Below are positions 611 to 57,600 of a stretch of DNA of 64,000 nucleotides, one piece after another. Each line of letters starts with the position of its first letter. The first letter of the stretch is position 1. Origin of the DNA: Liolophura sinensis (lineage: Eukaryota > Mollusca > Polyplacophora > Chitonida > Chitonidae); contig NC_088295.1 in the NCBI RefSeq assembly GCF_032854445.1, positions 2,668,501 through 2,732,500 of the forward strand. Reading direction: 5' to 3'. The notes below the pieces were generated by a model. It was not told the origin of the DNA, ran no database searches, and was given only the letters and a program-made list of their open reading frames with translations. The translations under genes were made by a program, and so were the position numbers.

Positions 611-884
611 AACATGCATTGAAGTACACAAAGAGTAATAAGCTACATGGTCTGTAATCAGAGCAAACTGAGAAGTCAAGCCTAATTTCCAGGCTGCGTA
701 TTTGTCCTTATTGACATATGTATGTAGATTAAGGCATCAAAATCAACTCCAGACAGGAACCTGGAGTTCTTACTAGAAAGCATTAATAAAGTGTTTATTC
801 TTCTTACTGCCTACCCAAAACAGATGAGCGATTACAATTACTTATTAACTTGCAACACCATACTCAAGAATTTTTCATGAACAA

Positions 885-1099
885 ATGACAGTCAGTATTA
901 TGGATGGAGGGCAATATGAGCATCATAAACAGCCTACTGTTGGCAAAGACCCCCCTGTAGTAACAGTAGGGCAAAGCAAAAATGCACTGTTCAAAACTGC
1001 ACTTAAACAAAGAAAAATTAAGACGTTACGATGTTTGCAGTGGGCTTACTTACAACAGATGAATGCATTAGTTAATGCTATAACTAATGATAAGACACC
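885..1099 (+). other. possible unrecognised exon, plus strand (left allele)
   Basis: An open frame of about 70 codons, rich in Lys, Gln and Asn, ends at a strong donor (acacc/gtaagt). It lies antisense inside the last STUB1 intron. I do not recognise the protein and see no partner exon downstream. The frame is kept in the other allele (14871-15067) apart from a one-base indel near the N-terminus that shifts the first few codons. It could be a nested gene's exon, a decayed transposon piece, or chance. Confidence 0.25.
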
Positions 1100-1168
1100 G
1101 TAAGTAAACTATGTTCAAAATACCTGTAACAGTTTGTTTTATAGGTGTGGAGAGAAAATGGGTCTCAC

Positions 1169-4100: not shown

Positions 4101-7100
4101 AGCATTCTACAGGTAAAACAGCTTATCTTCTCACACATGTAATCAGGTACATCCCACTTCTACAGAGAGGAAATAACAGATAAGCCTGATTAGCATGCTA
4201 CAGGTAAAACAGCTTATCTTCTCACAAAGGTAATCAGGTACATCCAGCTTCTAGAGAGAGGAAATAACAGAAGAGCCTGATTAGTATGCTACAGGTAAAA
4301 CAGTTCATCTTCTAACACATGTAATCAGGTACATACATTTTGCTTCTAGAGAGAAGAAATAACAGATGAGCCTGATTAGCATTCTACAGGTAAAACAGCT
4401 TATCTTCTCACACATGTAATCAGGTACATCCCACTTCTACAGAGGGGAAATAACAGATGAGCCTGATTAGTATGCTAGAGGTAAAACAGCTTATCTTCTC
4501 ACACAGGTGGTCAGGCACATCCAGCTTCTACAGAGGGGAAATAACAGATGAGCCTGATTAGCATTCTACAGGTAAAACAGCTTATCTTCTCACACATGTA
4601 ATCAGGTACATCCCACTTCTACAGAGAGGAAATAACAGATAAGCCTGATTAGTATGCTACAGGTAAAACAGCTTATCTTCTCACACATGCAATCAGGTAC
4701 ATCCAGCTTCTACAGAGGGGAAATAACAGATAAGCCTGATTAGCATGCAACAGGTAAAACAGCTTATCTTCTCACAAAGGTAATCAGGTACATCCAGCTT
4801 CTAGAGAGAGGAATAACAGAAGAGCCTGATTAGTATGCTACAGGTAAAACAGTTCATCTTCTAACACATGTAATCAGGTACATACATTTTGCTTCTAGAG
4901 AGAAGAAATAACAGATGAGCCTGATTAGCATTCTACAGGTAAAACAGCTTATCTTCTCACACATGTAATCAGGTACATACCACTTCTACAGAGGGGAAAT
5001 AACAGATGAGCCTGATTAGTATGCTAGAGGTAAAACAGCTTATCTTCTCACACAGGTGGTCAGGCACATCCAGCTTCTACAGAGGTGAAATAACAGATGA
5101 GCCTGATTAGCATTCTACAGGTAAAACAGCTTATCTTCTCACACATGTAATCAGGTACATCCCACTTCTACAGAGAGGAAATAACAGATAAGCCTGATTA
5201 GTATGCTACAGGTAAAACAGCTTATCTTCTCACACATGCAATCAGGTACATCCAGCTTCTACAGAGGGGAAATAACAGATAAGCCTGATTAGCATGCTAC
5301 AGGTAAAACAGCTTATCTTCTCACAAAGGTAATCAGGTACATCCAGCTTCTAGAGAGAGGAAATAACAGAAGAGCCTGATTAGTATGCTACAGGTAAAAC
5401 GAATATCTTCTCACACAGGTAGTCAGGTACATCCAGCTTCTAGAGAGAGGAAATAACAGAAGAGCCTGATTAGTATGCTACAGGTTAAAAAGCTTATCTT
5501 CTCACACAAGTAGTCAGGTACATCCCACTTCTAGAGAGTGGAAATGCCACAAGAGTCGGATTAGTTGCAACACGTAACACAGGAAACAGAGAGCCTGATC
5601 GTAACATGGATAATCACTCCAGATCATTCCATGTTGTAGAAGAGCTGGTCATGTAACTTAAAAATATCGAATGACTAATTCATAGGAGCTCAACTTCCAG
5701 AATATTTAATGTTGGCAGTGAGTTTTGTGTGTGGAAGAATTACAGTGCTCGGAGTAATGTCGGCCATCAGTTTTGTGTGTGGAAGAATTACAGTGCTCGG
5801 GGTAATGTTGGCCGTGAGTTTTGTGTGTGGAAGAATTACAGTGCTCGGAGTAATGTTGGCCGTGAGTTTTGTGTGTGGAAGAATTACAGTGCTCGGAGTA
5901 ATGTTGGCAGTGAGTTTTGTGTGTGGAAGAATTACAGTGCTCGGAGTAATGTTGGCGGTGAGTTTTGTGTGTGGAAGAATTACAGTGCTCGGAGAAATGT
6001 TGGCAGTGAGTTTTGTGCGTGGAAGAATTACAGTGCTCGGAGTAATGTTGGCAGTGAGTTTTGCGTGTGGAAGAATTACAGTGCTCGGCGCAATGTTGGC
6101 CGTCAGTTTTGTGTGTGGAAGAATTACAGTGCTCGGAGTAATGTCGGCAGTGAGTTTTGTGTGTGGAAGAATTACAGTGCTTGGAGTAATGTTTGCCGTG
6201 AGTTTTGTGTGTGGAAGAATTACAGTGCTTGGAGTAATGTTTGCCGTGAGTTTTGTGTGTGGAAGAATTACAGTGCTTGGAGTAATGTTGGCAGTGAGTT
6301 TTGTGTGTGGAAGAATTACAGTGCTCGGAGTAATGTTGGCCGTGAGTTTTAATGTTGGCCGTGAGTTTTGTGCGTGGAAGAATTACAGTGCTCGGAGTAA
6401 TGTTGGCAGTGAGTTTTGTGTGTGGAAGAATTACAGTGCTCGTAGTGATGTTGGCCGTCAGTTTTGTGCGTGGAAGAATTACAGTGCTCGGAGTAATGTT
6501 GGCCGTCAGTTTTGTGTGTGGAAGAATTACAGTGCTCGGAGTAATGTTGGCAGTGAGTTTTGTGTGTGGAAGAATTACAGTGCTCGGAGTAATGCTGGCA
6601 GTAAGTTTTGTGTGTGGAAGAATTACAGTGCTCGGAGTAATGTTGGCAGTGAGTTTTGTGTGTGGAAGAATTACAGTGCTTGGAGTAATGTTGGCAGTGA
6701 GTTTTGTGTGTGGAAGAATTACAGTGCTCGGAGTAATGTTGGCAGTGAGTTTTGTGTGTGGAAGAATTACAGTGCTCGGAGTAATGTTGGCCGTGAGTTT
6801 TAATGTTGGCTGTGAGTTTTGTGTGTGGAAGAATTACAGTGCTCGGAGTAATGTTGGCAGTGAGTTTTAATGTTGGCCGTGAGTTTTGTGTGTGGAAGAA
6901 TTACAGTGCTCGGAGTAATGTTGGCAGTGAGTTTTAATGTTGGCCGTGAGTTTTGTGTGTGGAAGAATTACAGTGCTCGGAGTAATGTTGGCCGTGAGTT
7001 TTGTGTGTGGAAGAATTACAGTGCTCGGAGTAATGTTGGCCGTGAGTTTTGTGTGTGGAAGAATTACAGTGCTCGGAGTAATGTTGGCCGTGAGTTTTGT

Positions 7101-11375: not shown

Positions 11376-11379
11376 CTAA

Positions 11380-12652: not shown

Positions 12653-12852
12653 NNNNNNNNNNNNNNNNNNNNNNNNNNNNNNNNNNNNNNNNNNNNNNNN
12701 NNNNNNNNNNNNNNNNNNNNNNNNNNNNNNNNNNNNNNNNNNNNNNNNNNNNNNNNNNNNNNNNNNNNNNNNNNNNNNNNNNNNNNNNNNNNNNNNNNNN
12801 NNNNNNNNNNNNNNNNNNNNNNNNNNNNNNNNNNNNNNNNNNNNNNNNNNNN
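12653..12852. other. 200-N scaffold gap
   Basis: Exactly 200 N, a fixed-size scaffolding gap rather than a measured one. The last base before it corresponds to about 26899 in the right copy; the first bases after it are inside the 45-bp array that also opens the window. The two contigs therefore overlap in content by about 12.9 kb. Confidence 0.98.
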
Positions 12853-14262: not shown

Positions 14263-14486
14263 ACTTTCAATACTTTTTTCATTTTTACTTATGCTACTTA
14301 AGTTCACATGTTTTTTTTTTTTCTTTTTGGACATTCATAAACACCTTCAGGGAAGTTAGTAAACAAATATGAAGGATATGGTAAATGGTTTATAACATGT
14401 ATAAAGTAAGAAGTTATTCTTTTTTTTTTAAATTTCAAACTGTAAGATAATGTGCTTATTAACATGCTTTGAATTTATTCATAATT

Positions 14487-14576
14487 TGCTGGCAGACCTT
14501 GCCATGTATGACTGGAGAGAGGCTCCTGGGTCACTGCACGGTGCTGGTACACTAATCACTATGCCGTACAGGCCCC
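14487..14576 (+). mobile_element. SINE tail fragment (right allele)
   Basis: Allelic counterpart of 521-610, with the same borders and near-identical sequence. Confidence 0.6.
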
Positions 14577-14870
14577 AACATGCATTGAAGTACACAAAGA
14601 GTAATAAGCTACATGGTCTGTAATCAGAGCAAACTGAGAAGTCAAGCCTAATTTCCAGGCTGCGTATTTGTCCTTATTGACACATGGTATGTAGATTAAG
14701 GCATCAAAATCAACTCCAGACAGGAACCTGGAGTTCTTACTAGAAAGCATTAATAAAGTGTTTATTCTTCTTACTGCCTACCCAAAACAGATGAGCGATT
14801 ACAATTACTTATTAACTTGCAACACCATACTCAAGAATTTTTCATGAACAAATGACAGTCAGTATTATGG

Positions 14871-15067
14871 ATGGAGGGCAAATATGAGCATCATAAACAG
14901 CCTACTGTTGGCAAAGACCCCCCTGTAGTAACAGTAGGGCAAAGCAAAAATGCACTGTTCAAAACTGCACTTAAACAAAGAAAAATTAAGACGTTACGAT
15001 GTTTGCAGTGGGCTTACTTACAACAGATGAATGCATTAGTTAATGCTATAACTAATGATAAGACACC
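14871..15067 (+). other. possible unrecognised exon (right allele)
   Basis: Counterpart of 885-1099, ending at the same gtaagt donor. A one-base insertion (ggcaaatatg versus ggcaatatg) moves the upstream ATG out of frame; an alternative ATG keeps the rest open. Indel tolerance at the N-terminus argues mildly against a constrained start codon. Confidence 0.25.
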
Positions 15068-15136
15068 GTAAGTAAACTATGTTCAAAATACCTGTAACAG
15101 TTTGTTTTATAGGTGTGGAGAGAAAATGGGTCTCAC

Positions 15137-18100
15137 CTGCAAATGTTCTACGATATCTTTTCTGTCATAGGTAATACCACTAGGTGTAATCACAGGTTCA
15201 CGCATCAGCTCAAAGCTTATCTTCCCACACAGGTAGTCAGGTACATCCCGCTTCTAAAGAGAGGAAATAACACAGAGCCTGATTAGAGTGCTACAGGTAA
15301 AACAGCTTATCTTCCCACACAGGTAATCAGGTACATCCCGCTTCTAAAGAGAGGAAATAACACAGAGCCTGATTAGAGTGCTACAGGTAAAACAGCTTAT
15401 CTTCTCACACAGGTGGTCAGGTACACTCTGCTTCTAAAGAGAGGAAATAACACAGAGCCTGATTAGTGTGCTACAGGTAAAACAGCTAATCTTCTCACAC
15501 AGGTGGGTCAGGTACACTCTGCTTCTAAAGAGAGGAAATAACACAGAGCCTGATTAGAGTGCCACAGATAAAACAGCTAATCTTCACACACAGGTGGTCA
15601 GGTACACTCTGCTGCTAAAGAGAGGAAATAACACAGAGCCTGATTAGAGTGCCACAGATAAAACAGCTTATCTTCTCACACAGATAGTCAGGTACATCTA
15701 CCTTCTAGAGAGAGGAAATAACACAGAGCCTGATTAGTATGCTACAGGTAAAACAGCTTATTTTCTCACACAGGTAGTCAGGTACATCTACCTTCTAGAG
15801 AGAGGAAATAACAGAAGAGCCTGATTAGTATGCTACAGGTAAAAACAGCTAATCTTCTCACACAGGTGGTCAGGTACACTCTGCTTCTAAAGAAAGGAAA
15901 TAACACAGAGCCTGATTAGAGTGCCACAGATAAAACAGCTTATCTTCTCACACAGATAGTCAGGTACATCTACCTTCTAGAGAGAGGAAATAACACAGAG
16001 CCTGATTAGTATGCTACAGGTAAAACAGCTTATTTTCTCACACAGGTAGTCAGGTGCATGGTACAGATTTTGTGGTGAACACATTTGCGCGAAAATAAGT
16101 GCCATCGCATATAAAACCCATGTAAGAAATTTATTAATGTAACATGTGTTACAGTTATAAATTTGTTAAATTTGTTAAAAAGCACTACAGTTCTATCATT
16201 TTTTCAAACACATTAATTAGAAATACATAATTAGGAATGTATTCCGGCTTTCACAAATCCAGCTTAAATGATCGTCAGTTAATCTTGCTGTCTTTTAAGG
16301 AGGCTTAGCTCCGTTCAAGGATCGCCACAATGCGACATTGTTGTTGTTTATTTATTGCCGCGGTTGGAGGCATACAAAGTGATACGATATACATACGATG
16401 AGAGAGGCTGTTTTTTTATCGACTGTACTTGCCTTCCAGTCAGATCACCTTTCAGACGCGCCCAACACATAGTTCGGGAGTTTCTGCGCTTCAAACTTCC
16501 TTTTCATAATGATGATTTGTGAGAAATTTACTCATATCTGTCACAGTTCACTCAAAGTTTCACTCACACTGCTGATGCACGAGAATTAAACAGTGGGATT
16601 TATATATATCACATTTAATCCTTCGTCGTCTCCAGGAGTGAGTGACATGAATATTTGCTCACACAGCAGGTAAGGGGTTCATCTTATAAAGATTAACAGT
16701 CTTTAAAAGATTAAAACCTTAGGAGGATTAACTTCCTTTGTCTGATCAAGTTACTGTACTGTATAGAATTTTTGTCACGTCTCACAGCTACAAAAAAGTT
16801 TAAACGATAGCACTGTTACTTGAATGATTGAGTCATTTTATTACTTGACGTTTCTGTATTGGAGTTTGATTTTCGTTTGTCCAAAAATCAGTTGTCCAAA
16901 AATTCTGTTAAGATTTGTGAAAGTTGATTCCTCGAATGTGTCTTCTTACCAAATCTGCAAAAGTTTATGACCGAGAATAAAAAGGCATTTACAGTATCTT
17001 CCCACATAGGTAATCAGGTACATCCAGCTTCTACAGAGGTGAAATAACAGATGAGCCTGATTAGCATGCTACAGGTAAAACAGCTCATCTTCTTATGCAG
17101 GTAATTAGATACATCCAGCTTCTACAGAGGGGAAATAACAGAAGAGCCTGATTAGCATGCAACAGGTAAAACAGCTCATCTTCTCACACATGTAATCAGG
17201 TACATTGAGCTTCTAGAGAGGGGAAATAACAGATGAGCCTGATTAGCATGCTACAGGTAAAACAGCTTAGTTTCTCACACAGGTAATCAGGTACATTTTG
17301 CTTCTAGAGAGAAGAAGTAACAGAAGAGCCTGATTAGTATGCTACAGGTAAAACAGTTCATCTTCTAACACATGTAATCAGGTACATACATTTTGCTTCT
17401 AGAGAGAAGAAATAACAGATGAGCCTGATTAGCATTCTACAGGTAAAACAGCTTATCTTCTCACACATGTAATCAGGTACATCCCACTTCTACAGAGGGG
17501 AAATAACAGATGAGCCTGATTAGTATGCTACAGGTAAAACAGCTTATCTTCTCACACAGGTGGTCAGGCACATCCAGCTTCTACAGAGGGGAAATAACAG
17601 ATGAGCCTGATTAGCATTCTACAAGTAAAACAGCTTATCTTCTCACACATGTAATCAGGTACATCCCACTTCTACAGAGAGGAAATAACAGATAAGCCTG
17701 ATTAGCATGCAACAGGTAAAACAGCTTATCTTCTCACAAAGGTAATCAGGTACATCCAGCTTCTAGAGAGAGGAAATAACAGAAGAGCCTGATTAGTATG
17801 CTACAGGTAAAACAGTTCATCTTCTAACACATGTAATCAGGTACATACATTTTGCTTCTAGAGAGAAGAAATAACAGATGAGCCTGATTAGCATTCTACA
17901 GGTAAAACAGCTTATCTTCTCACACATGTAATCAGGTACATCCCACTTCTACAGAGGGGAAATAACAGATGAGCCTGATTAGTATGCTAGAGGTAAAACA
18001 GCTTATCTTCTCACACAGGTGGTCAGGCACATCCAGCTTCTACAGAGGGGAAATAACAGATGAGCCTGATTAGCATTCTACAGGTAAAACAGCTTATCTT

Positions 18101-41129: not shown

Positions 41130-41855
41130 ACATCCTAAGCTGCACTGAAGGTATACAGGGCTATGTCACCTGAATCAACCACAGCACAGAGTAAAGAGAC
41201 ATCCTCGTCTGTGATCTACCCCATACTGATATCTACAGGTAGACAGACTGGACTGAAGGTATATAGGGCTATGTCACCTGAATCAACCATGGCACAGAGT
41301 GAAGAGACATCCTCGTCTGTGATCTACCCCATACTGATATCCACAGGTAGACAGACTGGACTGAAGGTATACAGGGCTATGTCACCTGAATCAACCATGG
41401 CACAGAGTGAAGAGACATCCTCGTCTGTGATCTACCCCATACTGATATCCACAGGTAGACAGACTGGACTGAAGGTATACAGGGCTATGTCATCTAAACC
41501 AACCACAGCACAGAGTAAAGAGACATCTTCCTCTGTGATCTACCCCATACTACTATCCACCGGTAGACAGACTGGACTGAAGGTATACAGGGCTATGTCA
41601 CCTGAATCAACCACAGCACACAGTAAAGATCCTCGTCTGTGATCTACCCCATACTGATATCTACAGGTAGACAGACTGGACTGAAGGTATACAGGGCTAT
41701 GTCATCTAAACCAACCACAGCACAGAGTAAAGAGACATCTTCCTCTGTGATCTACCCCATACTACTATCCACCGGTAGACAGACTGGACTGAAGGTATAC
41801 AGGGCTATGTCACCTGAATCAACCACAGCACACAGTAAAGATCCTCGTCTGTGAT
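41130..41855 (-). repeat. 108-bp array copied from the TSEN54 stop-codon exon
   Basis: Seven extra copies lie immediately 3' of the TSEN54 stop. Spacing of actgaaggt: 41144, 41252, 41360, 41468, 41576, 41680, 41788, then the true exon at 41892, i.e. 108 bp with two 104-bp units. On the minus strand each 108-bp copy encodes the last part of the protein again ('DSGDIALYTFSPVCLPVDIS') and the same stop. They therefore form 3'UTR or downstream sequence, not coding. Confidence 0.93.
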
Positions 41856-44800
41856 CTACCCCATACTGATATCTACAGGTAGACAGACTGGACTGAAGGT
41901 ATACAGGGCTATGTCACCTGAATCAACCACAGCGCAGAGTAAAGAGACATCATCATTTAACCTGGTAGCAACCTCTGTAATCTGTGACAGTGTTGGGGGT
42001 GGGTCACTCTGTCTGTAATAGAGTAAGAGTGTGAGTTTATTGACTGATTCACTAAATAGATGTGACTGCTTGGTTAAACGTCAGAAATTATACACAATAT
42101 TCATGCAGTTGCAGCTTCAACAAATCCCATCTCAGTCAAAGATTTTGGAAGGAAAATAGTCTTGGCTAAAGCAAGCTCACTTTCTAAGGAAGTGCAATAA
42201 GCATTTAGTTCTTCCTTTCTTAAATGTATTCTTGAATAATGAAAATCTTGAACACTAAATATACATGTAACTCTACAACAGTTTGATATTTCATAAAATA
42301 TTTAACGTATCACAGGTATATCTGATTAGAAAGTGTGAATTCTAGAGAAATTCCTGTCAACGTTTCACTTCTCCTTAGCACTTACTTCTGTACATGAATT
42401 CTGCAGTGAGGTATACCTGGTGTGGACTTCTTAAACTTGGAGTCTGGGTAATAGACATCAAAGGCGACCTTGAGAGAGGAATCTACCTGTGTTGTGCTGT
42501 AAACATGAAGATGGGAAATCAACATCACACTAATACCCTCTTTCTGGTCAAGTCTGATGTACATGTATTTGGGGATTGACATCAAAGGTGACATTGGTAG
42601 AGGAATCTACCTGAGTTGTGCTGTAAACACGAAGATGGGAAATCAACATCACACTAATACACACTTTTCTGGTCAAACCTGATGTACATGTATTTGGGGA
42701 TTGACATCAAAAGTGACCTTGATAGAGGAATCTACCTGTGCTGTGCTGTAAACATGAAGATGGGATTTCAAGGTCACACTAATACATACTTTTCTGGTCA
42801 AACCTGGTATACATGTATTTGGGGATTGACATCAAAGGTGACCTTGATAGAAGAATCTACACGAGTTGTGCTTTAAACATGAAGATGGGAAATCAACATC
42901 ACACTAATACACACTTTTGTGGTCAAGCCTGATGTACATGTATTTGGGGATTGACATCAAAGGCGACCTTGATAGAAGAATCTACGTGTGTTGTGCTGTA
43001 AACAAGAATATGGGATCTCAAGGTCACAGGTACTTTATACCCTAATTCTTCACTCTTTTCATCTGTCACCAATATTTTGAAACCTTCTGAGAAAACAATG
43101 GCATCTTTAGTGTCTTAAACATGTCATTCTAGCATCATTTTGATAATAATTGTGTGCTTAAATTTCAGTGAAAGACTTACAGTATATGTGTTCGGTGACA
43201 GACATCAAAGGTGACCTTGACCTAGGAATCTACCTGCACAGTGCTGTGAATACGATGATGAGAGATTAAGGTCACAGGTACTAATACCCATTTTTGTGTT
43301 CAAGCATGATGTACTGTAGCATACACATGTACAAGTAAGCACAAATACAAACTGTTACCCTGAAGTGAATGATAGAGGCTTCTTATTACTGCATGCTCAC
43401 CTTTTAACTGCCTGCACATCAAACTCCTTGATGACACGAAGTCTCTGCTGGATGTTTGCTGGAACAAGGATAATATACAGGCAATGTACATCATACATGT
43501 AGCTAACATAGTGATTATCGGGATATTCTAGACTGACACTTATGCAGGACACTTAACCTACGTGTATTCAGAACAGACTGATTTTCACGCAGGACACTTA
43601 ACCTACATTTATTCAGACTTTTCTACACATTCGCTCCAAATTCACAATTATAGCCAGCATTAATATAAAAGCATGACCTAGACCAATATGTTACTGCTAA
43701 AGAATTTTTTACTTGCGACAAGAGTGTTAAACAAGTCACGGCTAAACAGCAAATTCATTTCAGCACTGGGACATTTAATCAGCAAATGTTACCTGTGCAC
43801 GACGCATCTTGAGGTCTAATGAGAGGAGTTATCTCCCTGGTCCAGAGGTGTGCTACTGGGGAATTCTCTGGGCAATTCAACTTTTGATCTTTTAACTGTT
43901 TTGCTAATTTATACTCGTGCCAATTTTTGGCCTTGATTCCTTTATATGCAGATTTCAACATGAAGTGTGGGAATGAAAATTCAAGGTTGACTTCATTTTC
44001 TGAGTCTTCTAGATGTAACATGGATTTCTTCTCCTTTGCGAGGTTAATTGGGAATTGTGAAATACTGACATGTCTATCACTGGGGTACACCACATTTGTA
44101 GGTAACAGATTTGGCGATGGTGATTTCCAGACAACCTTGTTTTTACCACATACAGACGGTAGTTCAATGTCTGAAAAGTCTACAAAACAAGGTGTGATGC
44201 GACTGTTGGTCTTTGGCAGATTCCATGTTGACAGAGGCTCTTCACTGTCCATCATCTTTTCATCAGTACACAACTTCTTAGTTTCATGAGCGGTGCTATT
44301 TGCAGGTGTTGTCAAAAACTCTGTCTCCTTGTTTGTTGCTGTGTGTGGATTGACACTGCTGGGGTTCGTTGAATCCTTTCTGGTCACCTTAGGTAATAAA
44401 CTCTTATTATCTTCAACACCGTCATTTTCACAACCTTTTCCTTCCAATTTTCGTTTACGTTTTGTTTTTCTTGTGTGCTGATCAAGACGAATCTGTCTTT
44501 CATATCTTGTTGCTCCATACCTAGCGAATGAACGAATGAACGTTTGGCTTAGACACAGCATCACCAATATCACACCCCTATCAAAACATTTACATGTATA
44601 AATGCCTGAATTTGAAACAGTAATTAACCACCTACATTACCCAATTGATTAGCATGAACTAGTCTCTTATCGTTTCTTAAGTGATCTCTCATACATTCAT
44701 CTCAAAAGGCTGGGTAGTTGGTTGATAAAAAAAATCTACTAAATTATAAGTGATTTACAGTATGTATATACAGAATGCTCTTACTGTCCTAAGTGGCGAA

Positions 44801-47800
44801 TGACAACAAATCCCAAGCGTCGTAAGTGCGCATACACCTGGTACTCGTCCAATGTGATGGCCCTTCCCAGGAAACACGAATACGCCTGCTGAATGCTCAC
44901 CGGAACACCTCTGTACCAAACCTCCAGAACGTTCTGTCAACATCAACCATAATGCTCACCCAAAACTGAATCCCACATTCACTAAATGTAGGTCTAGCAG
45001 TTATAGATTTTCTATGGTTCACCTAAAATGATGATATTAACCCATGATTAGCCCAGGGCGACTGAATTGGTGAGAGTCTCCTGGCGTGATATCACTTTGA
45101 CCATGGAGGCTCCACTGTATGTGCTGGGAAGGCAACTTGTGTGTGCTAGGAAGGTAACTGTATGCGCTGGGATGGCAACTGTATGTGCTGGGATGGCAAC
45201 TGTATCTGCTGGGATGGCAACTATGTGCTGGAAAAGCAATTGTATGTGCTGGAAAAGGAACTGTATGTGCTGAGAAGGCAACTGTATGTGCTGAGAAGGC
45301 AACTGTATGTACTGGGAAGGCAACTGTATGTGTTGGGATGGCAACTGTATCTGCTGGGATGGCAACTATGTGCTGGAAAAGCAATTGTATGTGCTGAGAA
45401 GGCAACTGTATGTGCTGAGAAGGCAACTGTATGTGCTGGGAAGGCAACTGTATGTACTGGGAAGGCAACTGTATGTGCTGGGAAGTCAACTGTGTGCACT
45501 GGAATGGCAACTGCATGTGCTGTGAAGGCAACTGAATGTGCTGGGAAGTCAAATGTATGTGCTGGGAAGTCAACTGTGAATGGCAACTGCATGTGCTGTG
45601 AAGGCAACTGTATGTGCAGGAAAAGCAACTGTATGTTCTGCTAAGTCAACTATATATGCTGAGAAGGCAACTGAATGTGCTGGGAAGGCAACTAAATGTG
45701 CTGGAAAGGCAACTGTATGTGCTAAGAAGGCAAATGTATGTGCTGGGAAGTCAACTGTATGTGCAGGAAAAGCAACTGTATGTGCTGGGAAATCAACTGT
45801 ATGTGCTGGGAAGGCAACTTTATGTGCTGGGAAGTAAACTATATGTGCTGGAAAGGCAACTGTATGTGCTGGGATGGCAACTGTATGTTCTGGGAAAGCA
45901 ACTGTATGTTCTGCTAAGTCAACTATATATGCTGAGAAGGCAACTGAATGTGCTGGGAAGGCAACTAAATGTGCTGGGAAGGCAACTATATGTGCTAAGA
46001 AGGCAAATGTATGTGCTGCAAAGGCAACTATATGTGATGGGAAGGCAGCTATATGTGAAAGGAAGGCAACTGCATATGCTGGGAATGCAACTGTATGTGC
46101 TGGGATGGCAACTATATGTGATGGGAAGGCAACTGCATATGCCAGGAAGGCAACTGTATGTGCTGGGATGGCAACTGCAGGTGATGGGAAGTCAACTGAA
46201 GATGCTGAAAAAACCTAAAACTAACCTAGGGAAGTCTTCAGTGTTGCACACATAACTTAGACCTAACTTGACGTGTATTTGTCTGTTTGCCATCTGATCG
46301 GTTCTGCACATTTAGTATCTGTTTGTTTACCATCTGATCTGTTCTGTACATTTAGTATTTGTCTGTTTACCATCTGATCCATTCTGTACATTTAGTATTT
46401 GTCTGATTACCATCTGATCTGTTCTGCACATTGTATATTTGTCTGTTTACCACCTGATCCGTTCTGTACATTTAGTATTTGTCTGTTTACCATCTGATCC
46501 ATTCTGCACATTGTGTATTTGTCTGTTTAAAATCTGATCCGTTCTGTACATTGTGTATTTGTCTGTTTACCATCTGATCTGTTCTGCACATTTAGTATTT
46601 GTCTGTTTACCATCTGATCCATTCTGTACATTTAGTATTTGTCTGTTTACCACCTGATCCGTTCTGCACATTGTGTATTTGTCTGTTTACCATCTGATCC
46701 GTTCTGTACATTTAGTGTTTGTCTGTTTACCATCTGATCCGTTCTGCACATTGTGTATTTGTCTGTTTACCATCTGATCTGTTCTGCACATTGCGTATTT
46801 GTCTGTTTACCACCTGATCTGTTCTGCACATTGTATATTTGTCTGTTTACCACCTGATCCGTTCTGCACATTGTGTATTTGTCTGATTACCATCTGATCC
46901 GTTCTGCACATTTAGTATTTGTCTGTTTACCATCTGATCCGTTCTGCACATTGTGTATTTGTCTGTTTACCACCTGATCCGTTCTGCACATTGTGTATTT
47001 GTCTGTTTACAATCTGATCCGTTCTGTACATTTAGTATTTGACATCAACATCTGATCCGTTCTGCACATTGTGATTTGTCTGTTTACCATCTGATCCATT
47101 CTGCACATTTAGTATTTGTCTGTTTACCATCTGATCCGTTCTGTACATTTAGTATTTGACATCAACATCTGATCCATTCCGCACATTTATACTTATGCCC
47201 ACATCAAACTGGGTTTCACTGCTCTCGACTCACCGTTTCCATCAGGAAGAGGGCTTCCTCTGGGTACAGCCATTTTCTCTGCTGATTCACAAAGCCCATG
47301 TAAGCCCAAAATTTACCCTGCATGAATACAAAGCCATTACATACACAAATACCAACAGGCATAGATTTTGCAAGACACTGAAATCTGGATGTCTCATTAT
47401 TTTCCCTACTTTCTTACATGTACATGTATCTATGATTTCACCAGAATAAGTTGTCTTCAACACACTGTAACACCACTCTGTACGCCGTAGCTGTCTCAGT
47501 TAAGATTTGGAACATTTGAAAAGTAGTTTTGGTGAACAATACCCTGCCAAATCAGCCAAGCGAACTTAGCAGATTTGGAATGTGAATGGTTTGTTAGGCC
47601 CTCAACTTACCAATTCTTTCTCCAGCTCAACGAGGTCCTTATCTGGGTTCCACTGTCCTCTAACAAGGCTGCCACTGAAACAGGCAAGACTATACTTAGA
47701 TGTGCCCCTAACTTATCTCAATCATATGACACTGAAAAGGAAAAGCATTACTTCTATTATATCTTACAGTCATAGGCATCTCAATGGCCGTAGCTATCGC

Positions 47801-50800
47801 GGTCAAAATCCTTCTGTAATTATTTTCAAAACTGTTTTCTTTGTTATTTTAAAATAAAACTCAAATGCTGTAATCTTAGATTGTGAAACAGTCAGGCCTT
47901 CAGCTGTGTCTAGTTCACAGCAGTGTTCATAATTGAAAAGATATTTGTATTATTCACACTGTTTTGTGCTTAAAGAGAACATAAAGTCTACCAGTATATA
48001 TACATAGAAAATATGATATAGGAGACAGTTATCACTGGCAGACCTTCCCACGTACGGCCGCAGAGGAAGCCAGCATGCGTTGGACTTGACCTCTTAGCAA
48101 CCGCATTGCTCAGAAGCTCCTGGGTTACGAAAGCTAGTGGCCTGCAAATTTTGAAGGACACACAGGCATATCCACTTAACATTGGTTGCTTTCTCCTGAC
48201 CCTTGTCTCTAAAATGTCGAAGATAAAACATGTAAGTATATAATACAGGCTTTTCTGGAGATATACTCATGATAATGTGCGCTTTTCTGGGGCTAAAAGT
48301 ATGATAATGGGCACTTTTCTGGGGCTAAAAGGATGATCATGTGGGCTTTGACCAGGCTAAAAGTATGATCATGAGGGCTTTGATGGGGCTAAAAGTATGA
48401 TCGTGTGGGCTTGGATGGAGCCAGCCTTACAGTTTCTCCACTCGTTGCTCTGCCAGCAGAGCTCTCCTCTCTTCCCAAAACAGCTCCCTGCGACGCCCAT
48501 CCAGCCAAGATCCATCTGGGCAATAATCCTTCACTCCTTTTTTGGGGAGGCATTTCTCAGTGGGCTTTCTATGTGCAAACAACTGCTTGGAACTGAGGAC
48601 AAATAATAAAAAAAAAAATTTATTTATTTATTTACTTGATTGGTGTTTTACTCCGTACTCAAGAATATTTCACTTATACGATGGCGGCCAGCATTATGGT
48701 GGGAGCAAACCGGGCAGAGCCCGGAGGAAACCCACAACCATTCCCAGGTTGCTGACAGACCTTCCCACATACGGCGAGAGGTCAAAAAAAAAAATATATA
48801 TATATATGCATTTCTAGAAGAAATGAATGGAAATGGGAAAATCAATAAAGACATACGGTTGTGAAAAACAGGATTACTGTATTTCATGTAAAGACTATCA
48901 TTTTTCATGTGATATGTTTTGCTTGATTTTGACTGATTCATCCATATTATGGGGTCGTTTAAATCCTTTCTTGTTAAATTTGATCAAATTCTCACCAAAA
49001 CACTTAAGTGTTGGCGACAAAAGGTACATGTAGCAACAAATGAAATGGCTGACTAAGCTTTGCTGGTGCTCGCTTAGTCATGGATTGCTCCCATTCATCG
49101 CTACATGAAGCAGCGTAAAATTTCGGAAAACAGTCAATTACTAACATCCGCGGCCTGTCCAGTTATTTCTTTACAATGCTTAGCGCCCCACCTGACTGTA
49201 ACAATGCCGAGAGGTTGATCACCCCAAAGGTAAATATTCATCCATATTTCAGCAATTTCAACTTCTCCGTTCACTTGAAATTCACAAAGATGGTTGCCCA
49301 TCACATATGCCAGCCGGGTTCCTGGGACACAGTCAATGTCCATCGTTTGCAATTGCGAGGCCTGGGAAACAGCTGCCATTTTGGCAATTTGGAATCAAGC
49401 GACAGGTTGAGCTTGCTGAAATATGGATGGATATTTTACCTTTGAGATGATCGAAAGCTCGGTATTTTAACAGTCAGATGCCCTGGGGCACTAAGCATTG
49501 TAAATGAATAACCGGACAGGCTGGGGAGGTAAGTAATTAACTGTTTTCTGAAATTTACAACAGTTCCATGTTAGAGGTGAATGCAAACAGCCCATGACTA
49601 TGGAAGCTCCAGTGAAGCGTAGTCATCCAGGGCTATGACATGCTCGGCTTTTGTCAAGAGTTTTTAATCAACACTTTGCAACTTGATGGGAAAATTCACA
49701 GACATTCACATATCTACTCCTCTGTTACTATCACCAGTTGTAGTAACTATAGTTGTAGGCCAGGACTGAGCTAGGCAAAGAATAGCCAAAGAGTTTGGCA
49801 GTTGTAAAGAGTTGGTTGATACTTTTGTCAGTGAATAAGCCTCATCTCAGATTTTAACTCTGAAAATCTGTTTGCTCAATGAACTGATGTCACAATACCA
49901 CGCCACAGCAGCTTGAAGCTTAAATATCCCCAATCATTAGTATATAACATCAATTTGTCTAATTCAATGCTTTGTGCCCAGGTGTATTAGACTCGTTCTC
50001 CATTAAGTGGGAAAATTCTATGGGCATGTTTTACTTAAGACTTAAGCTCAAAATGTTTCATTCTGTGCTTTTCCAACAGACTAATATATTAAGGAAAAGT
50101 TGCCAAAATGGCTGCACCCGGAAATAGGCACTTTCAGCTATAATTCAGGAAGAAGTTCATCCAATTTCCCCCATGTTAACAGATACATTACTACGTCAGT
50201 TTTCAAAATAACACAAAGACAAAGCAGATGAAAGAAAGGTGAATACAAACACCTTGAATGTGAAATACAATATCAGTTTTTGGTTAGATCCCACGGGTGC
50301 ATGAGCCGGCCCTGCATATTGTATTTTTGACAGGCATACAAGTATCTACACCACATATTTTACTATATAAACAATGACCATAAGTTCAAAACACATTCAT
50401 TTTACTTTCATACTATTGTCTGTGATGATATAACCAAACATACACTGTATTTATTATAAACTGATAAGTTGTGATTTCGTGTGACAGTTGCTCAATAAAG
50501 CACTGCTTTCGACAACCTGTGCATCACTCATCCTGTACTATTGGCTAACATGACACGTATCTGTTCCAAATTTGGTCAATCACAACTACAGCCTTGTTTG
50601 TCCTGATCTTGTCATAAACACATTGCCTTAATCACCTGAATGACAAAAAACTGCCCTTACTTGCCATTTACAAAGAGAACGATAAAGTGAAAAGTTAATA
50701 AAACAAGGATGGTGATAACGTATCTATATTTAAGTCATGATCCTTAGTGTAGCAGCTGTATTTCAAGCATAACCTGTATGACAGTTTCAACATCTGGTAG

Positions 50801-52943
50801 GGAGCAGTACTGCTGTGAATGTCCTATACCTACAGGATCCATGATTGGGGTTAGCATTTCACTGAAGAAAACCCAGATTTCATCTGGTCGTGAAGGCAAC
50901 TTTAGATGGAGTTTACCTCACATTATATGCCTGGACAAGACACCAAGGTATCACGATCACTGACATCAACCTCTATTACTTTCCCCAATATACCAATCAA
51001 TGTCATATAAAGCCGCATATCAACTATAATTTTACATTGGATTGTCTGTTGCATTTCATTGTTGTCAACGTTTTTGATGAACCGTGAACACAACAGAAAC
51101 GAGAAACCCCAGCTTCTTCATTGAAAAGAGACATAAAGCAGCATTTCTGGATAATACTACCGGTGTTAACTCCATTAATTATAGGATGTTTCTGGGATGT
51201 ATTATATCTGAAAGATGAACGAGTCTCAGACAAAACAGCGTTTCCTAGTTGAAGTCCTTTCATCATGGAACAAGGCATGCCACGTGGATTAACGCCATCA
51301 TTTCTCTGATCATGAACAGTTTTGGATTTTGGCCTCAGATTCATGACTTTAGCCGTATTTGACGGTTGACCTGTATTTGAGTAGACAGTTTCTCGAAACG
51401 ATCTTGAAAACGTCAGGCATTTTTAGTTTCAGTTCTCAACTTAGTATTCACCTTTTGGATCTCCCCTCTGGCCTTTCTAAGCACCTTGATCTTCTGACGC
51501 GCAATCTTACATGGTAGTTAGACTGAGACGACTGAGCTGCTGACATCATTAGGCTGTCAAACCAGGGATTGTGCAGATTCTGTTAGAGGTTCTGCATGTT
51601 GCGCTTTACCACGGCCTTTTTTAGGTGCTAAGACAATAGCCTTTGGTTTTTTTTTGCAAAGATCTTTCAGTTTCTTTTGGATAGTGCAGCACGGACTCTG
51701 TACTTGGTCTGGTGCTGAGATTCTTTCTAAAGTTAAGAATGGCCATAGTGAACCTAAATATTTTAAAACTGCCTTCCTTAGTAGCCTGAAAAGGACTGCA
51801 AGCAAAATATACGCCGCGACGGAACATGTAACGTGTACTTCCTATTTTGCTAGGAAACTGTAACCCAACAGATATGTTACCAAGATTAACAAGAAATACG
51901 TTACCAGGTTTTCGCAAAGCACAACATGTGTGGAGACACAAGTAACATATTACTTCATTTTATCATTTCCTGATTTCCTAAAATATGACTACATTTTGTA
52001 TTCTTTATGAAATATCTTGTGTTCTTATGCTATATTCCAACAATGCAAGCATTTTTATTGCAAGATTACATGGATTGATATCACAACTCCCTTCAACGTT
52101 AGGACGCGACAATCTATAGAAACGTATCTGTGTGTCACGTATCTGATTAACCAAACCATATTTCGGTGAATCGATCCTCGTAATGTGTCTGTGACATGAG
52201 ATGTAGACACCGTATACACAAGTGCTGAGCATACCATAATTGCAAACCATCGGCAAATGGTTGCGATCACTTCCGTGTATGAGGTGTGAGTCCATCCCCG
52301 GTGACCTGCCTAAAATCCAAAGTACTATTATCATTACAGGTATCTGAGTAACTGCTTATAGGTACAAACTGGACATCGAAAAAATGTACTCTGTAACCTG
52401 AAGGTATGGGCTCAAATTCTGTATGTACAATAAAATTTCAGACATAATCAATTTACTAGGCTACCTGGTTTTTGGGCAACGTATCTGTCATACAAATTGA
52501 GGACAACTACACTAACAGAGAGACAATAACTGCTCTAAATAGTCCAGGTCTTGGAAAATATAGCATCCTTGACAAGAATTACATGATACACAGCACTTGT
52601 ACACCCAAGCTGAAAACAGGTCATTTGTGTCAACTTTTGTTATGATAAACAGACTGAGGGCAGCTAAAATGGTATTACTGTTAACATATAACTTGTAATT
52701 TACGGCAAACAGAGGTGTGGCGTATTTAGACAGCATTTGTTTAAAAACTGACAGGCTTTTTGTGTTCCCAAAGTTTTGTGACACATAATAAACGCTGCTT
52801 TCACAAATAGTTCAAAATGAACCATTACACTGACAGTACTTTATTAGATCACCAGTTTCCGATACGAACCTTAACAAGTTCTCATTGAGTACACCATTGC
52901 CTTCTTCGCTGCCTGGTGACAGTGAATCTGTTGACACATCCAT
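41856..52943 (-). CDS. TSEN54: TSEN54, tRNA-splicing endonuclease subunit
   Basis: Structural subunit of the nuclear endonuclease that removes introns from pre-tRNA; it pairs with the TSEN2 catalytic subunit and has no catalytic triad. Nine exons: 52870-52943, 48431-48592 ('KDYCPDGSWLDGRRREL'), 47611-47674 ('GSLVRGQWNPDKDLVELE'), 47234-47317 ('GKFWAYMGFVNQQRKWLYPE'), 44785-44933 ('ITLDEYQVYAHLRRLGFVV'), 43793-44520 (long low-conservation linker), 43401-43458, 42386-42496 ('FDVYYPDSKFKKSTPGIP'), 41856-42012 ('AVVDSGDIALYTF', stop). All junctions are GT-AG, phases agree, and the sum is 1587 nt = 528 aa, close to vertebrate TSEN54 (about 526). The N-terminal Sen54 domain and C-terminal endonuclease fold are both present. 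Exon 1 is the least certain (no homology, but start, phase and promoter position fit). Divergent from the KATNIP-like gene. Confidence 0.92.
42550..43275 (-). repeat. 125-bp array copied from the TSEN54 exon 8 acceptor
   Basis: Five to six units spaced 125 bp (attgac at 42575, 42700, 42825, 42950; a diverged one near 43200) lie in intron 7 just upstream of exon 8. On the minus strand each carries 'tttacag' acceptor plus the first 40 or so nt of exon 8 (Thr-Thr-Gln-Val-Asp-Ser ... Phe-Asp-Val), then intron. They are decoy splice junctions; 125 is not a multiple of three and some copies have stops. Confidence 0.9.
45115..46205. repeat. 21-bp minisatellite in TSEN54 intron 4
   Basis: About 50 units of 21 bp ('ctgtatgtgctgggaaggcaa'). 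Stop-free in several frames on both strands, giving overlapping pseudo-proteins (for example repeated Gly-Lys-Ala-Thr-Val-Cys-Ala). On the minus strand each unit ends in 'cccagcacatacag', which looks like a splice acceptor. Confidence 0.95.
46285..47175. repeat. 40-bp minisatellite in TSEN54 intron 4
   Basis: About 22 units of 40 bp ('tttgtctgtttaccatctga', 'tccgttctgcacatttagta'), with variants gcacattgtg/gtacatttag interspersed. It directly follows the 21-bp array and ends about 60 bp from exon 4. Confidence 0.95.
47675..48235. other. TSEN54 intron 2
   Basis: The intron contains a SINE tail at 48025-48185. Nothing else recognised; the frames here are intronic. Confidence 0.5.
48025..48185 (+). 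mobile_element. SINE distal-half fragment
   Basis: Contains 'gcagaccttcccacgtacgg', 'agaggaagccagcatgcgtt' and 'gaagctcctgggttacg', the distal half of the family whose head is at 48615-48785. Together these two fragments cover most of the element. Confidence 0.65.
48240..48415. repeat. short ~31-bp tandem repeat beside TSEN54 exon 2
   Basis: Five degenerate units ('ggggctaaaagtatgatcat', 'g(t/a)gggcttt') end about 15 bp from the exon 2 donor on the minus strand. Confidence 0.8.
48610..48785 (-). mobile_element. SINE head fragment abutting TSEN54 exon 2
   Basis: Contains 'gattggtgttttactccgta', 'gcggccagcattatggtggg', 'gagcccggaggaaacccaca' and 'gcagaccttcccaca'. An (aaataaat)n tail on the minus strand shows the element is oriented minus, the same as TSEN54. 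Its tail and the adjoining poly-T supply the pyrimidine tract of the exon 2 acceptor (AG at 48593-48594). Confidence 0.65.
49060..49640. mobile_element. foldback / MITE-like inverted repeat
   Basis: The left arm read on minus (from 49390 down to 49060) and the right arm read on plus (from 49405 to 49640) run in parallel: 'ttgctgaaatatggatg', 'cactaagcattgtaaa' or 'gctaagcattgtaaag', 'aactggacagg' or 'aaccggacagg', 'gactgttttc' or 'aactgttttctgaaattt'. Arms are about 230-320 bp. A partial third copy of the arm lies at about 53545-53640. The 81-codon minus frame at 49134-49379 is inside the arm, so I do not call it a gene. Confidence 0.6.
49650..52860. other. TSEN54 intron 1, no gene recognised
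   Basis: Several minus-strand frames of 80-110 codons (51024-51344, 51557-51941, 52005-52334) overlap one another in different frames and show no domain I recognise. 'KKLKDLCKKKPKAIVLAPK' at about 51600-51660 has coding-like composition and may be a decayed gene or transposon remnant. Confidence 0.4.
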
Positions 52944-54664
52944 GTTTGAACGAAAACAATGAAACGCTAATGACAAGCTTATTTTAGATAAATATTAGCA
53001 TTTTGTCTCAGAACTAGATTAGCGCATTCACTGATATCTCACGTTACGCACATGCGCATCATCACCGGAACAGAGAACTATCGGAATGTCAATGTAAACT
53101 GATCGGTCAGAAAGTGGTTGTCACCTACCACAGAATGCTGATTTTTATCAGAGATTGTGTGTGAAAGTTCCCAGAAATGAAAGTCGTTTGGAATCTGTGA
53201 TTGCATGGTGTTGAAAATAGGCAGTGGGGCAACTAGAATGAGCTGTACGTATACTTTTCTGTTAGACCTCAAGGAAACAACAACAACCACAACATTGTTC
53301 ACACTTCAGTCCTGTGTTTACCAAGTTTTTACGAATACATTTTGTGACAAATAATAGCATGCTCGTAGCTAGATCTGGATATTGCTCTGCGTCTATCAGT
53401 CTTTAGACGATACTGGGATGGCGAAATCTAGTCCTGGACACTATGACTGTGTCTTATATTTTAGGTAGCTGTGGATGACTATTTTTCGCTTTTTATGTTT
53501 GTACAGGCGCTCGCATGGTTATTGCTGAATTCCATTTATCCTGGTAGGAAGCATCGTAAAATGTCGGAAAACAGTCTATTACTAATCTACCCGCCCTGTT
53601 GAATTAATTCTTTACTATGCTTAGGGTTCTATACCGCCAGACAGATGCGGGCCATCTTACAGAATAGCTGGGCAAAAAATGCATTCCTCTCGACTACTAC
53701 AGCACGTGCCAGAATATCGCCACAACCATCATAAATGTGAGCAATAAAAAAGGCAATGATCCCTGTCAGAAATTATAACCCTGTCAGGCCGAAGCGATGC
53801 TGTTTCAAGTTGATGTATTAAAACAGTGAAATCTCCAACTTGTTCTTGGACACAGTGATTAACATTTTCACGCTGTTCCAAGACTCTTTGATATCTGAAA
53901 AGCATTCCCCTTACCTTCCCTCAGCTGATAAATATATAGTATGAAAAGCAAAAAACCGAATGTGGACATACATAATCAAATGCTCCCAGAAAATGGCAGT
54001 GAAAATGCACATGCCCAGATGTAGTTTGCAGCCAGGTACATATGTGTCCATTTTAAAACATTGAGTTGAAATCGTTGATACAACCCTTCTGAGGAATTTG
54101 CTGATGTATAAATATGTCTTATCCAAGTGACTTTACTCCTGCACCAAATTTGAAGTGGTTTGGGTGATATCCTATGCATCGGGTTTCAAACTTCTGCATA
54201 ATTTTCACTCTTTGAATGCATGACTATGGCTGAATGCCACATCGGCAATATTTCAGCCATATTATGGCGCATTCACTCTTTGAAGAAATATCTCTGAAAG
54301 GTGTACATCAAGTGATGATTCCAATCCTGAAATCAGGAACAATTTGGCGTGATGTAATACGATGATGTTGTAGAGTGTTCAAGTCAGACATATTGTAGCC
54401 TAATGACCTCTGATAAACCAATCTAAAGCTTTAGATTTAGCTGTGCATTGCACTGGCTATATTTGAAATTTGTTTTATCAAACAGAGCTAAAATGTATAA
54501 GGTGCTATTATAAGGTAATATAAATAACTATCTGGTACCTGATCAGTGTACATGTCTGCAGTTGAACGTTCTTTGTACTAAATATGAATTTGTGGGTGAA
54601 TATATAGCTCATGTATGTACTTTTTTTTTTAGTAGATTCAAAAGAAGGAAACTTAGAGAGGATC
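52944..54664. promoter_or_regulatory. divergent TSEN54/KATNIP-like upstream region
   Basis: A 1.7 kb head-to-head spacer. An NRF1-like site (cgcacatgcgca, 53047-53058, one mismatch to the YGCGCAYGCGCR consensus) and an ETS core (ccggaa, 53065-53070) lie about 105-125 bp upstream of the TSEN54 ATG, typical of housekeeping promoters. A pyrimidine-rich acceptor ('ctttttttttttag') just before the KATNIP-like ATG implies an upstream non-coding first exon, probably inside this spacer. Confidence 0.45.
53545..53650. mobile_element. partial copy of the 49060 foldback arm
   Basis: 'gaagcatcgtaaaatgtcgg' and 'aaaacagtctattactaat' closely match 'gaagcagcgtaaaatttcgg' and 'aaaacagtcaattactaac' at 49108-49147, showing that the arm is a dispersed repeat. 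It lies inside the divergent spacer. Confidence 0.55.
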
Positions 54665-57600
54665 ATGTCAGACTCGTCAATGGCTGTAAGTTTCATGATA
54701 AGTGTCTTGCAATAACAGTCTTGGTTCCTATCAGCAACCTAAAACATACATGTAAGCCCATCCCAAAAAAATTCTTTGATTCATGTCCCAGAGATTTGTT
54801 TTTAGTTTCTTTTTTAATTTAAAAAATATTCTATTAAACTGTGCTAAATGTATAAAAACTAGATGGGTTTAATTTGATCAGCAAACAAATTTTGTCACTG
54901 TTTAAGAGATTTTATCAACAGACACACCAATGCTGTCTGATATCAAAATAGATACTTAGATTCAAGCCTTTGTCAAGGCTACAATTTGAAAACAATACAG
55001 TCTGTATGTGTAACAGTCAGTACTACATTTTCAGATCATTAGTGATAAGTGTGAAAGTCATTTTTACTTTAAAATTTTATTGATTCAGCTTGGTAAATTT
55101 GCAGGCTCAAATTGCGAAGGAGGAGATTATGCCAAATTATGAAGAGTATCTAATGCTTTTACAAGAAAAGAACAGGTAAACAGTAAATTTACTTAGCAGT
55201 AGTTACCAGGTTTTTATGATGTAGAAGAAAAAAGCCCTGTGTAAATGTAGGTACATGTATAATACAGCTAACGGTCACTTTGATAACAACCATTTACAGT
55301 GTGATTTGTGTGGAAGTTGTGTGTGCCCAGCTTTATATTTACACCCTCTGCCTCTTGGTCTACTTACATGACTGATATTGGTCTATGCTGGTACATGTTT
55401 AATGTTATAATACAGGGTCTGATTTGTACAACAACTGGAGATCAGAATGTGGCCGTCAGAAAGGCTGAATGGACTACATGCTAATTAACATCAGTTTTGT
55501 CCAAAAAAAGGAATGTGTAACATGCATCTTGTAAATTTTTCTACAATACATTGTCAGAAAGACGTGTACAAGTAATGTGTTTATGTATTATATCAATATG
55601 TTGTTAACTTGCAAGGAATTGGCTAATGTTTTCGTTTCAAGGCTTGTGAAGAAATTGAAAGAAAAGGACAAAAAGCAGATAGTTTTGGAAAAGAGGGAAA
55701 AAGGCTTTTCTCTGTATGTGAATGGTGCTAATGCAAGGTGCAAGCCAAGACCCAAGGTTAACCAGATTTCACCAAACCAGTATCGACCCAAAACAAGGCA
55801 GGCCAAGACTGCAGGAGGTAAAGTTTGGTTGACTGTACCATTGATTTATGCTGGTTGAATTTTAATCTGGGTGCTTTTTTGGATCAAACGGATTAGTAAA
55901 TCTATTAAATGCATTTACTCAAGTATAGATTTGAACTGCTGGATTATGCCCGTCTCTATACGTACTGTACATGCACATGTAGGACAAAGCATATTTGACA
56001 GCTTTACATAAGGTAAAGATGAAGTACTCTTTATTTAACAGCAGCTTTTACAACAAGAGAACATTCATAACAAGTGAAACGTTAACTGTTAACTTGATTT
56101 ATTTATTTGATTGGTGTTTTACGCTGTTCTCAAGAATATTTCACTTATACGACGGTGGCCAGCATTATGGTGGGGGGAAACCAGGCACGGCCGGTGGTGG
56201 GGGGGGACCCACAACCAAAGTTAACTGTTTTTGTAGAGCTATTCTCACTGACAATGCAACTGTTGTAGACCAACCTCGTCTATTGGGGATCAACCCTGCA
56301 GACCTGTATCTGATCCAGCAAGAGGAGGCTAAACAAAACGCGAGTAGAGAACGTGTGAAAACAGCTCCCATCAAAGGTAGAAGGAACTGGGCAGTTAGGT
56401 CTATTGACATCCAAACTGCCAGGGGTGTGAAGGAAAGACTAAAGGCACCTCGTGAGTCTACAACTGAAAATAAGAATCGAATATTAAAATTTCAAGTCAC
56501 TTACATCAGCACATGTAGTGCTCAACAAAAACAGAGCCTTTTGCCAGAGCTGATGTCTAGTACAGCACTGTAAAATGTTTCAACCAGGATACAGAATTTA
56601 AAATGCTTGTGTACCACAGTTTTTCACAGTCACATTATTTTTGTATTCTTGACTATATACTATTTTGATTCTTTAACACAAAGAACATCTATGTTTGATT
56701 TTATATTTCTGGTATTTGCCTGTACATTTTGTTCACATTTCTATGGCAAAGATATTGTCCTCTTTGGTTTGTTGGAGATTCCATGATCTGCTTGTATACA
56801 AGCTTGTTTTGTGATAGGAGACTCTTTTCATTATTTTATAAAGTGTGGATGATTGCTAAAATTGAATACTTACTTGATTAACAGGTGAGTTGACAGGGAA
56901 TTATGAGGATGACTTTGAGTCAGATGGCAGTGAGGAAGGCTCAGAAAGGTCTGAGGTAAGTGTATATGTGGTGAGAGTAGTTATGTTATATGAAGAAAAC
57001 ACCAGATTTGGGTCAGATGGCAGTGAGGAAGGCTCAGAAAGGTCTGGGGTATGTGTACATGTGGTGAGGGTAGTTTTGTTATACGACAGAAAACACCTGT
57101 CATATAATGTAGCACATATGTAGAGCACAGTAACACAAGGGGGATATTCCATCGTTGATTCCATGTGTACACATTAAATACTGTGAATTACCAAATATCT
57201 GACTTAGTGTAGTGTGTTTTAGAATCAATGTTAAACAAAATGTTTTTCAGGCATTTATTGGCCTGAAGTTTGACATAGTTTAATAAGGTACAAGGGGGAT
57301 ACTCCATCGCTGATGCTCTTTGTATATAAATATATTACCGTAACTTACCAAATTCATGTTTTAAATACTTAATGTACTGAGCTGAACTTTTGCCTTCGCG
57401 TGCCTCCTACAGGCAAGCTCTTTGGTAGCCTTACTATAGGTTGTTTTTGGTTGGTGTGCAGTGTTCAAATGTCATGGCTGTACATTTTGTATGGTACGTG
57501 TACTTCACGAAGTTCTTATGACGGTTTGTTATACTGTTACTTTATTGCCTTTGCCTTTGTCTTGTGATCATGAAGGTAGAATGTTCTCAGGATCTTGGTC

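Follow-up and report, generated by a model that had tools for sequence, protein, structure and literature searches.

Tandem repeats with units that cross a single exon-intron boundary recur in several unrelated genes of the chiton Liolophura. We regard them as probably being mirage-type minisatellites, in which random local duplication is coupled with selection and the recurrence is mainly a matter of survivorship. Mirages are tandem repeats spanning exon-intron boundaries, which were named in the Adh3 gene of amphioxus and found in globin genes (PMC3087553). The extract of a further study adds amphioxus PGBD5 and troponin C as mirage cases (PMC3902484). An earlier note on the DNA studied here had described such arrays at four places in three genes, and considered that a genome-wide mechanism favoring duplication at splice junctions would be new; the architecture itself is not novel, having been named as above in amphioxus (PMC3087553, PMC3902484). 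As far as our searches go, the chiton arrays are real and recurrent, and they bring an architecture that already has a name into a new phylum.

The window, i.e. the whole stretch of 64,000 nucleotides that was analyzed, corresponds to C1:2668501-2732500 of a genome of 609 Mb in 632 contigs. Tandem arrays detected by TRF with a period of at least 20 account for 38% of the window and for approximately 17% of the gene regions that we sampled.

Arrays at gene boundaries in the window

All four arrays named in the earlier note were recovered by TRF (Table 1). Three of these, namely those of STUB1, the TSEN54 acceptor and KATNIP, cross splice junctions, whereas the 108-bp array of TSEN54 crosses the stop codon only; the STUB1 array falls outside the range of 41130-57105 that had been assigned to all of them. 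The three gene identities hold. STUB1 was identified by its CHIP_TPR_N (6e-25) and U-box (8.2e-14) domains and TSEN54 by matches to Sen54 chains (2e-64). KATNIP was identified through nine plus-strand matches to DUF4457 (PF14652), located 2.1 to 41.7 kb past the right end of the window, of which the nearest is weak (8.4e-4) and the best reaches 8.5e-22; we take PF14652 to be a domain of KATNIP. No Pfam family was matched convincingly by the N-terminal KATNIP exons that lie within the window.

Table 1. Arrays and associated exons in the window, followed by the array-covered junctions of the sampled loci
Feature	Position	Strand	Description	Basis
STUB1 U-box exon	1169..1285	-	PF04564 match C1:2669645-2669776	splice-end calls
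STUB1 junction array	1246..2089	-	90 bp x 9.4, 91% match	TRF, unit alignment
Deeper STUB1 intron array	3024..5545	-	91 bp x 27.6, same unit family as 90-bp array	TRF, DNA matches to STUB1 query
Second assembled STUB1 junction array	15214..16059	-	in ~14-kb duplication, 96.0-96.6% identity	TRF
TSEN54 stop-codon array	41140..41951	-	108 bp x 7.6, 90% match	TRF, reading frames
TSEN54 last exon, coding part	41856..42012	-	ends ...VCLPVDISMG; stop 41856-41858	
TSEN54 penultimate exon (TTQVDSSLKVAFDVYYPDSKF...)	42386..42496	-		splice-end calls; aligned to Sen54
TSEN54 acceptor array	42454..43015	-	125 bp x 4.5, 89% match	TRF, unit alignment
KATNIP exon (ELTGNYEDDFESDGSEEGSERSE)	56885..56955	+	donor at 56955/56956	splice-end calls
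KATNIP donor duplication	56914..57097	+	93 bp x 2.0, 91% match	TRF, alignment
Clear mirage donors	L001, L003, L005 (two), L008, L009 (two), L020			alignment by eye
Clear mirage acceptor	L011			alignment by eye
Marginal cases	L015, L022, L027			alignment by eye
Probable miscall	L009:9109			alignment by eye

In STUB1, at the TSEN54 acceptor and in KATNIP, as also in the sampled genes described below, the unit straddles a single boundary and carries sequence of both exon and intron. The 90-bp unit of STUB1 takes in the first 40 or so bases of the U-box exon together with its acceptor and some 50 bases of the intron, with 40 exon bases lying inside the array; the acceptor (1285/1286) sits in the array copy closest to the exon, and AG is kept in all eight of the further copies upstream. 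Similarly, the 125-bp unit of TSEN54 comprises 43 bases from the start of the penultimate exon, the acceptor (42496/42497) and intron sequence, while the 93-bp unit of KATNIP is made up of the last 42 exon bases, the donor and intron sequence. The 108-bp unit of TSEN54 consists of the coding end, the stop codon and a few following bases, and inspection of the unit and its reading frames revealed no splice junction in it; the first in-frame stop falls in the array copy adjoining the exon body. At STUB1, KATNIP and both TSEN54 arrays the copy adjoining the gene body is the complete one. In 3 of 3 junction arrays of the window and 11 of 11 sampled arrays, the part lying in the exon falls short of a full unit, as expected if one intact junction alone is kept.

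Provenance of the units

The units of STUB1, KATNIP and TSEN54 were matched at their own loci only in genome DNA searches, in which 4/4 and 1/1 candidates were scored in two cases and 40/429 for TSEN54. These searches skip simple repeats and very common words, and hence fall short of proving that a unit is absent elsewhere. For the TSEN54 query, with 40 of 429 candidates scored, the listed matches outside the locus fall at query positions 1904-2044, which are not in the arrays. Thus, no unit was found elsewhere in the genome, as a dispersed repeat or transposon would be, among the scored candidates. On this basis the units look like local duplications rather than one repeat family, in agreement with the proposal of the earlier note that they have different sources and reflect a recurrent process. 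A short dispersed element at 43033-43173, with 42 outside matches among those listed, on many contigs, separates the 125-bp array of TSEN54 from a more diverged copy of the unit.

To the author of the earlier note, the two-copy KATNIP case looked the youngest. Around the junction its two copies are identical at 71/80 bases, as against 79/80 for neighboring STUB1 copies; elsewhere, both copies of L011 and two of the four of L003 match at 58-60 of 60 bases, and the remaining two L003 copies at 41 and 43 of 60, counted without gaps. Judged by these identities, KATNIP is not obviously the youngest case.

The STUB1 region is present twice in a row, as segments of about 13-14 kb (1-12652 and about 13964-26900) with 96.0-96.6% identity, and a gap of 200 Ns at 12653-12852 lies near the join of the two copies, which are probably two unmerged haplotypes. 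This setting of the STUB1 array, in a duplication and beside a gap, is what might be cited for the arrays being artefacts of assembly. We consider this highly improbable: joining of haplotypes would duplicate the locus and not create the array; 9.4 units are present in both assembled copies, taken here as haplotypes; similar arrays are seen in further genes located on different contigs; and the HiFi reads behind the assembly, with a mean of 8.3 kb in the excerpt of the Liolophura japonica report (PMC11068029), exceed the listed junction arrays in length.

The same duplication contains arrays of a 48-bp unit, which also has variants of 19 and 67 bp, at 5707-8210 and 19678-22469; these differ in copy number between the two STUB1-region copies (13.4 versus 20.4 units in the first block) and show long open frames on both strands. 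Since the unit length is divisible by three, these open frames are mechanical and are no evidence for a gene.

Array coverage and array classes in sampled genes

Stretches of 10 kb were picked by exon matches to the chaperonin (PF00118), myosin (PF00063) and kinesin (PF00225) families before their own sequence was seen. The sample consists of 21 stretches in which three or more matches to chaperonin or myosin fall and of the nine where kinesin matches are densest, labeled L001-L030. The first 20 were tested before the kinesin set was chosen, and L030, the 21st on the chaperonin/myosin list, was added after the result of the uniform-placement unit test given below. A simple score applied close to the ends of the matches, rather than transcripts, served to call the splice sites; in the first 29 stretches, 139 exon matches yielded 214 called junctions and 64 uncalled ends.

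Array coverage at these junctions is lower than random, with 13 of 214 lying inside arrays as against 31.4 by rotation (0/2000 rotations as low); for periods of at least 40 the corresponding values are 11 and 21.0 (47/2000 as low). Toward the exon, intron coverage declines from 0.169 at a distance of 400-800 bp to 0.062 at 0-20 bp, and within exons it is 0.051 in the last 20 bases and 0.020-0.035 further in, with no peak at the junction across the 214 sampled junctions. Inspection by eye of the 13 array-covered junctions resolved them into nine clear mirages, three marginal cases and one probable miscall, confirming that the same architecture recurs in other genes. The boundaries hit by the clear cases are eight donors and one acceptor (L011), and those of the window are two acceptors and one donor.

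Sorting the arrays by what they overlap is more informative than coverage. Arrays containing a whole exon number 1 as against 14.5 (9-21) by rotation, and those inside an exon 0 as against 1.2. Arrays crossing one junction number 15, of which two depend on the doubtful exon at L009 8707-9109 and another is at L029, as against 10.4 (5-17). Random placements with the exon overlap capped at 93, 48 and 16 give 9.0 (4-14), 5.2 (1-9) and 1.6 (0-4), respectively, to be compared with the 15 observed uncapped. We infer that selection removes the other classes of arrays because they are nearly absent. A plain depletion at junctions, read from coverage alone, was rejected as a description, since the class counts and the unit tests indicate that it lumps together the loss of whole-exon arrays and the tolerance of junction arrays.

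The sole whole-exon case, at L029 8584-8706, corresponds to kinesin residues 285-326 and may be a repeated piece of an exon, given that residues 272-326 are matched by the exon at 6868-7026. In the same kinesin gene, a 73-bp array at L029 6868-9035 coincides in part with two matches that hit the same stretch of the motor domain (residues 272-326 and 285-326). This is possibly a further mirage repeating most of an exon end; it was left uncounted, with its donor uncalled.

Unit-based tests and a local control

In the unit tests, every array contributed a single count, given by its unit, with the arrays collapsed in the coordinates. With uniform placement, 11 junction-spanning units were observed as against 3.5 expected (4/3000; 213 junctions), and with rotation 9 as against 3.1 (15/4000; 30 loci, 218 junctions). 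All three families lean the same way, with 2 versus 0.75 for chaperonin (694/4000), 6 versus 1.85 for myosin (31/4000) and 1 versus 0.42 for kinesin (1408/4000), myosin being the only one that stands out by itself. The likely miscalled L009:9109 was dropped before both unit tests and the edge test described below, and L027:3632, for which an acceptor outside the array fits equally well, before the rotation test. The non-redundancy rule removed L009:4041 (107 bp x 2), making the observed count smaller, and the marginal L022 was retained. In the window itself, placement at junctions does not go beyond chance by either measure, with 3 of 38 junctions inside arrays as against 14.6 by rotation, and 3 of 38 spanned by units as against 1.3 expected, a count that 667/4000 rotations reach.

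The roughly three-fold excess over the whole-locus null, in the same direction in three families, could be read as a mechanism tied to the junction itself (splicing, R-loops or AG/GT microhomology) that favors tandem duplication, as the earlier note had envisaged. We consider such a mechanism unlikely. With at least 10 bp required on either side, 9 of 218 junctions are spanned; when the sites are shifted by 40, 60, 80, 100 and 125 bp, 5, 6, 9, 10 and 6 are spanned out of 215-217, and shifts of 150-600 bp give 1-6 out of 135-214. With loci resampled, the density of units at the junction relative to that at 30-150 bp into the intron is 1.05 (95% 0.53-1.85), i.e. there is no sign of a hotspot specific to the junction over the adjacent intron, effects smaller than about two-fold being beyond the reach of this comparison. 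Thus, the enrichment looked for at junctions is present in the sample when units are compared with whole loci, but is not seen relative to the adjacent intron, and coverage is below random. The stop-codon array of the window, which has no junction, also speaks against a mechanism of this kind.

A further observation that could favor it is that six array edges lie 4-17 bases inside exons as against 0.66 expected; this baseline is too low, as its denominator still included positions past the following exon, and on account of it we do not rely on the nine-fold edge excess. At 490 strong pseudo-splice sites off known exons there is little edge excess, with two edges at -17 to -4 (ratio 1.45) and four at -4 to 5 (ratio 4.2), which again speaks against a mechanism tied to the junction.

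The local control with the adjacent intron indicates that the whole-locus excess reflects a rise in units close to exons and not the junction itself. Unit density at 30-150 bp exceeds that at 150-800 bp by a ratio of 1.84 (95% 1.16-2.92), again with loci resampled; the rise is mild, roughly two-fold, and the counts are small. One possible reading, to which we give some though clearly lesser credence, is that tandem duplication generally starts more often in the 150 bp or so next to exons, junctions included, through a link to transcription or chromatin, or else that deep introns only look poorer through dilution by young insertions. The ratio is mixed with the effects of intron length, insertions and unannotated exons, and the comparison of the junction with the deep intron (1.97, 95% 0.81-3.92) is less decisive. 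Such seeding is compatible with survivorship as the main explanation. Survivorship is itself weakened to an extent by the three-fold whole-locus excess, the exon-edge excess and the 15 one-junction arrays, which lie above every capped mean. A bolder version, which we regard as rather improbable, is that a process linked to exons seeds duplications about twice as densely within about 150 bp and thereby feeds mirages, with molluscs and cephalochordates gaining decoys at several per cent of junctions.

Decoy splice sites in the extra copies

Extra copies retain the splice dinucleotide, with GT or AG kept in 98 of 103 copies from 14 arrays; L015 alone gives 42 of these copies, and without it the figure is 58 of 61. 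In 73 of 103 instances (35 of 61 without L015) the score of the decoy equals or exceeds that of the used site. Strength would thus not suffice to tell the real site apart, and position is the more likely cue. Exon definition would provide a basis for a positional choice of splice site.

The alternative is that distal decoys are used at times, giving rise to proteins with extra in-frame repeats, of 31 residues per unit in KATNIP and 22 in one chaperonin. The second KATNIP copy also has a GT, and the resulting extension of 93 nt is in frame and open, as is one of 66 nt in L009. These are the only 2 of 9 donor arrays examined with in-frame, open extensions, and an insert at the L009 chaperonin exon would land inside the domain match. 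Further, amphioxus mirages are spliced regularly: one gene carries 3 and 6 mirage units in two haplotypes, with splicing undisturbed by RT-PCR (PMC3087553). We accordingly think it very unlikely that the decoys are used.

The array in question, in the L009 chaperonin gene (2195-2655), has seven 66-bp units with a GT donor in 6/6 extra copies; its first distal donor, if used, would add 22 residues in frame.

Origin and persistence of the arrays

In the explanation that we favor, that of random local duplication filtered by selection, short tandem duplications would arise more or less randomly in a repeat-rich genome, and some of the duplicated segments would by chance cross one exon-intron boundary. 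The exon-proximal copy would stay whole beside its exon, such that the old splice site could still close the old exon, while the extra copies, each with an exon piece and a decoy site, would end up in the intron, where unequal exchange may amplify them. Likewise, when a stop codon is duplicated, the first stop would be kept and later copies would go untranslated. Duplications inside exons or over whole exons would alter the protein and be lost. We infer, then, that splicing uses the proximal site, selection filters and unequal exchange amplifies. Duplication over one junction or a stop codon should leave the protein unchanged, by which all four cases of the window are covered without any targeting mechanism.

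With these arrays, mirage minisatellites are recorded beyond the cephalochordates, in a mollusc, together with a rough frequency and controls. They are natural tests of how splicing chooses among near-identical repeated sites, and also supply material from which introns may be gained or in-frame repeats in proteins may arise. For gene annotation, their decoy exon ends can mislead gene models. The exon-proximal rise in duplications merits a genome-wide count.

Comparison with known systems

Among the matches listed from the open-licence literature, for which mollusc-specific terms were used in part only, we found no mollusc mirage case or genome-wide junction test; the extract of a Conus paper only mentions microsatellites. 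The closest relatives are the amphioxus mirages, the units of which, according to the available sections of the two reports, measure 150-160 and 157 bp in the globins BflGb6 and BflGb9, 10-72 in Adh3, and 60 and 108 in PGBD5 (PMC3087553, PMC3902484). As in the chiton, the amphioxus units cross the boundary at either end of an exon, and many, though not all, of the copies keep AG/GT (same reports, same sections). The chiton arrays differ in being distributed over several unrelated genes, with a rough frequency of 9/218, and are known here from genomic DNA alone. Human segmental-duplication genes likewise show minisatellite expansion at exon boundaries that alters intron structure there; in the excerpt of that study these repeats are, unlike the chiton arrays, recent differences between paralogues with transcript-supported new introns (PMC2812944). 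Finally, a potato gene shares with the chiton genes a tandem duplication across an intron-exon boundary (PMC4974935); the human and potato cases illustrate where such duplications may lead. In potato this duplication gave rise to a new spliced intron, whereas the extra copies in the chiton appear to sit in an existing one.
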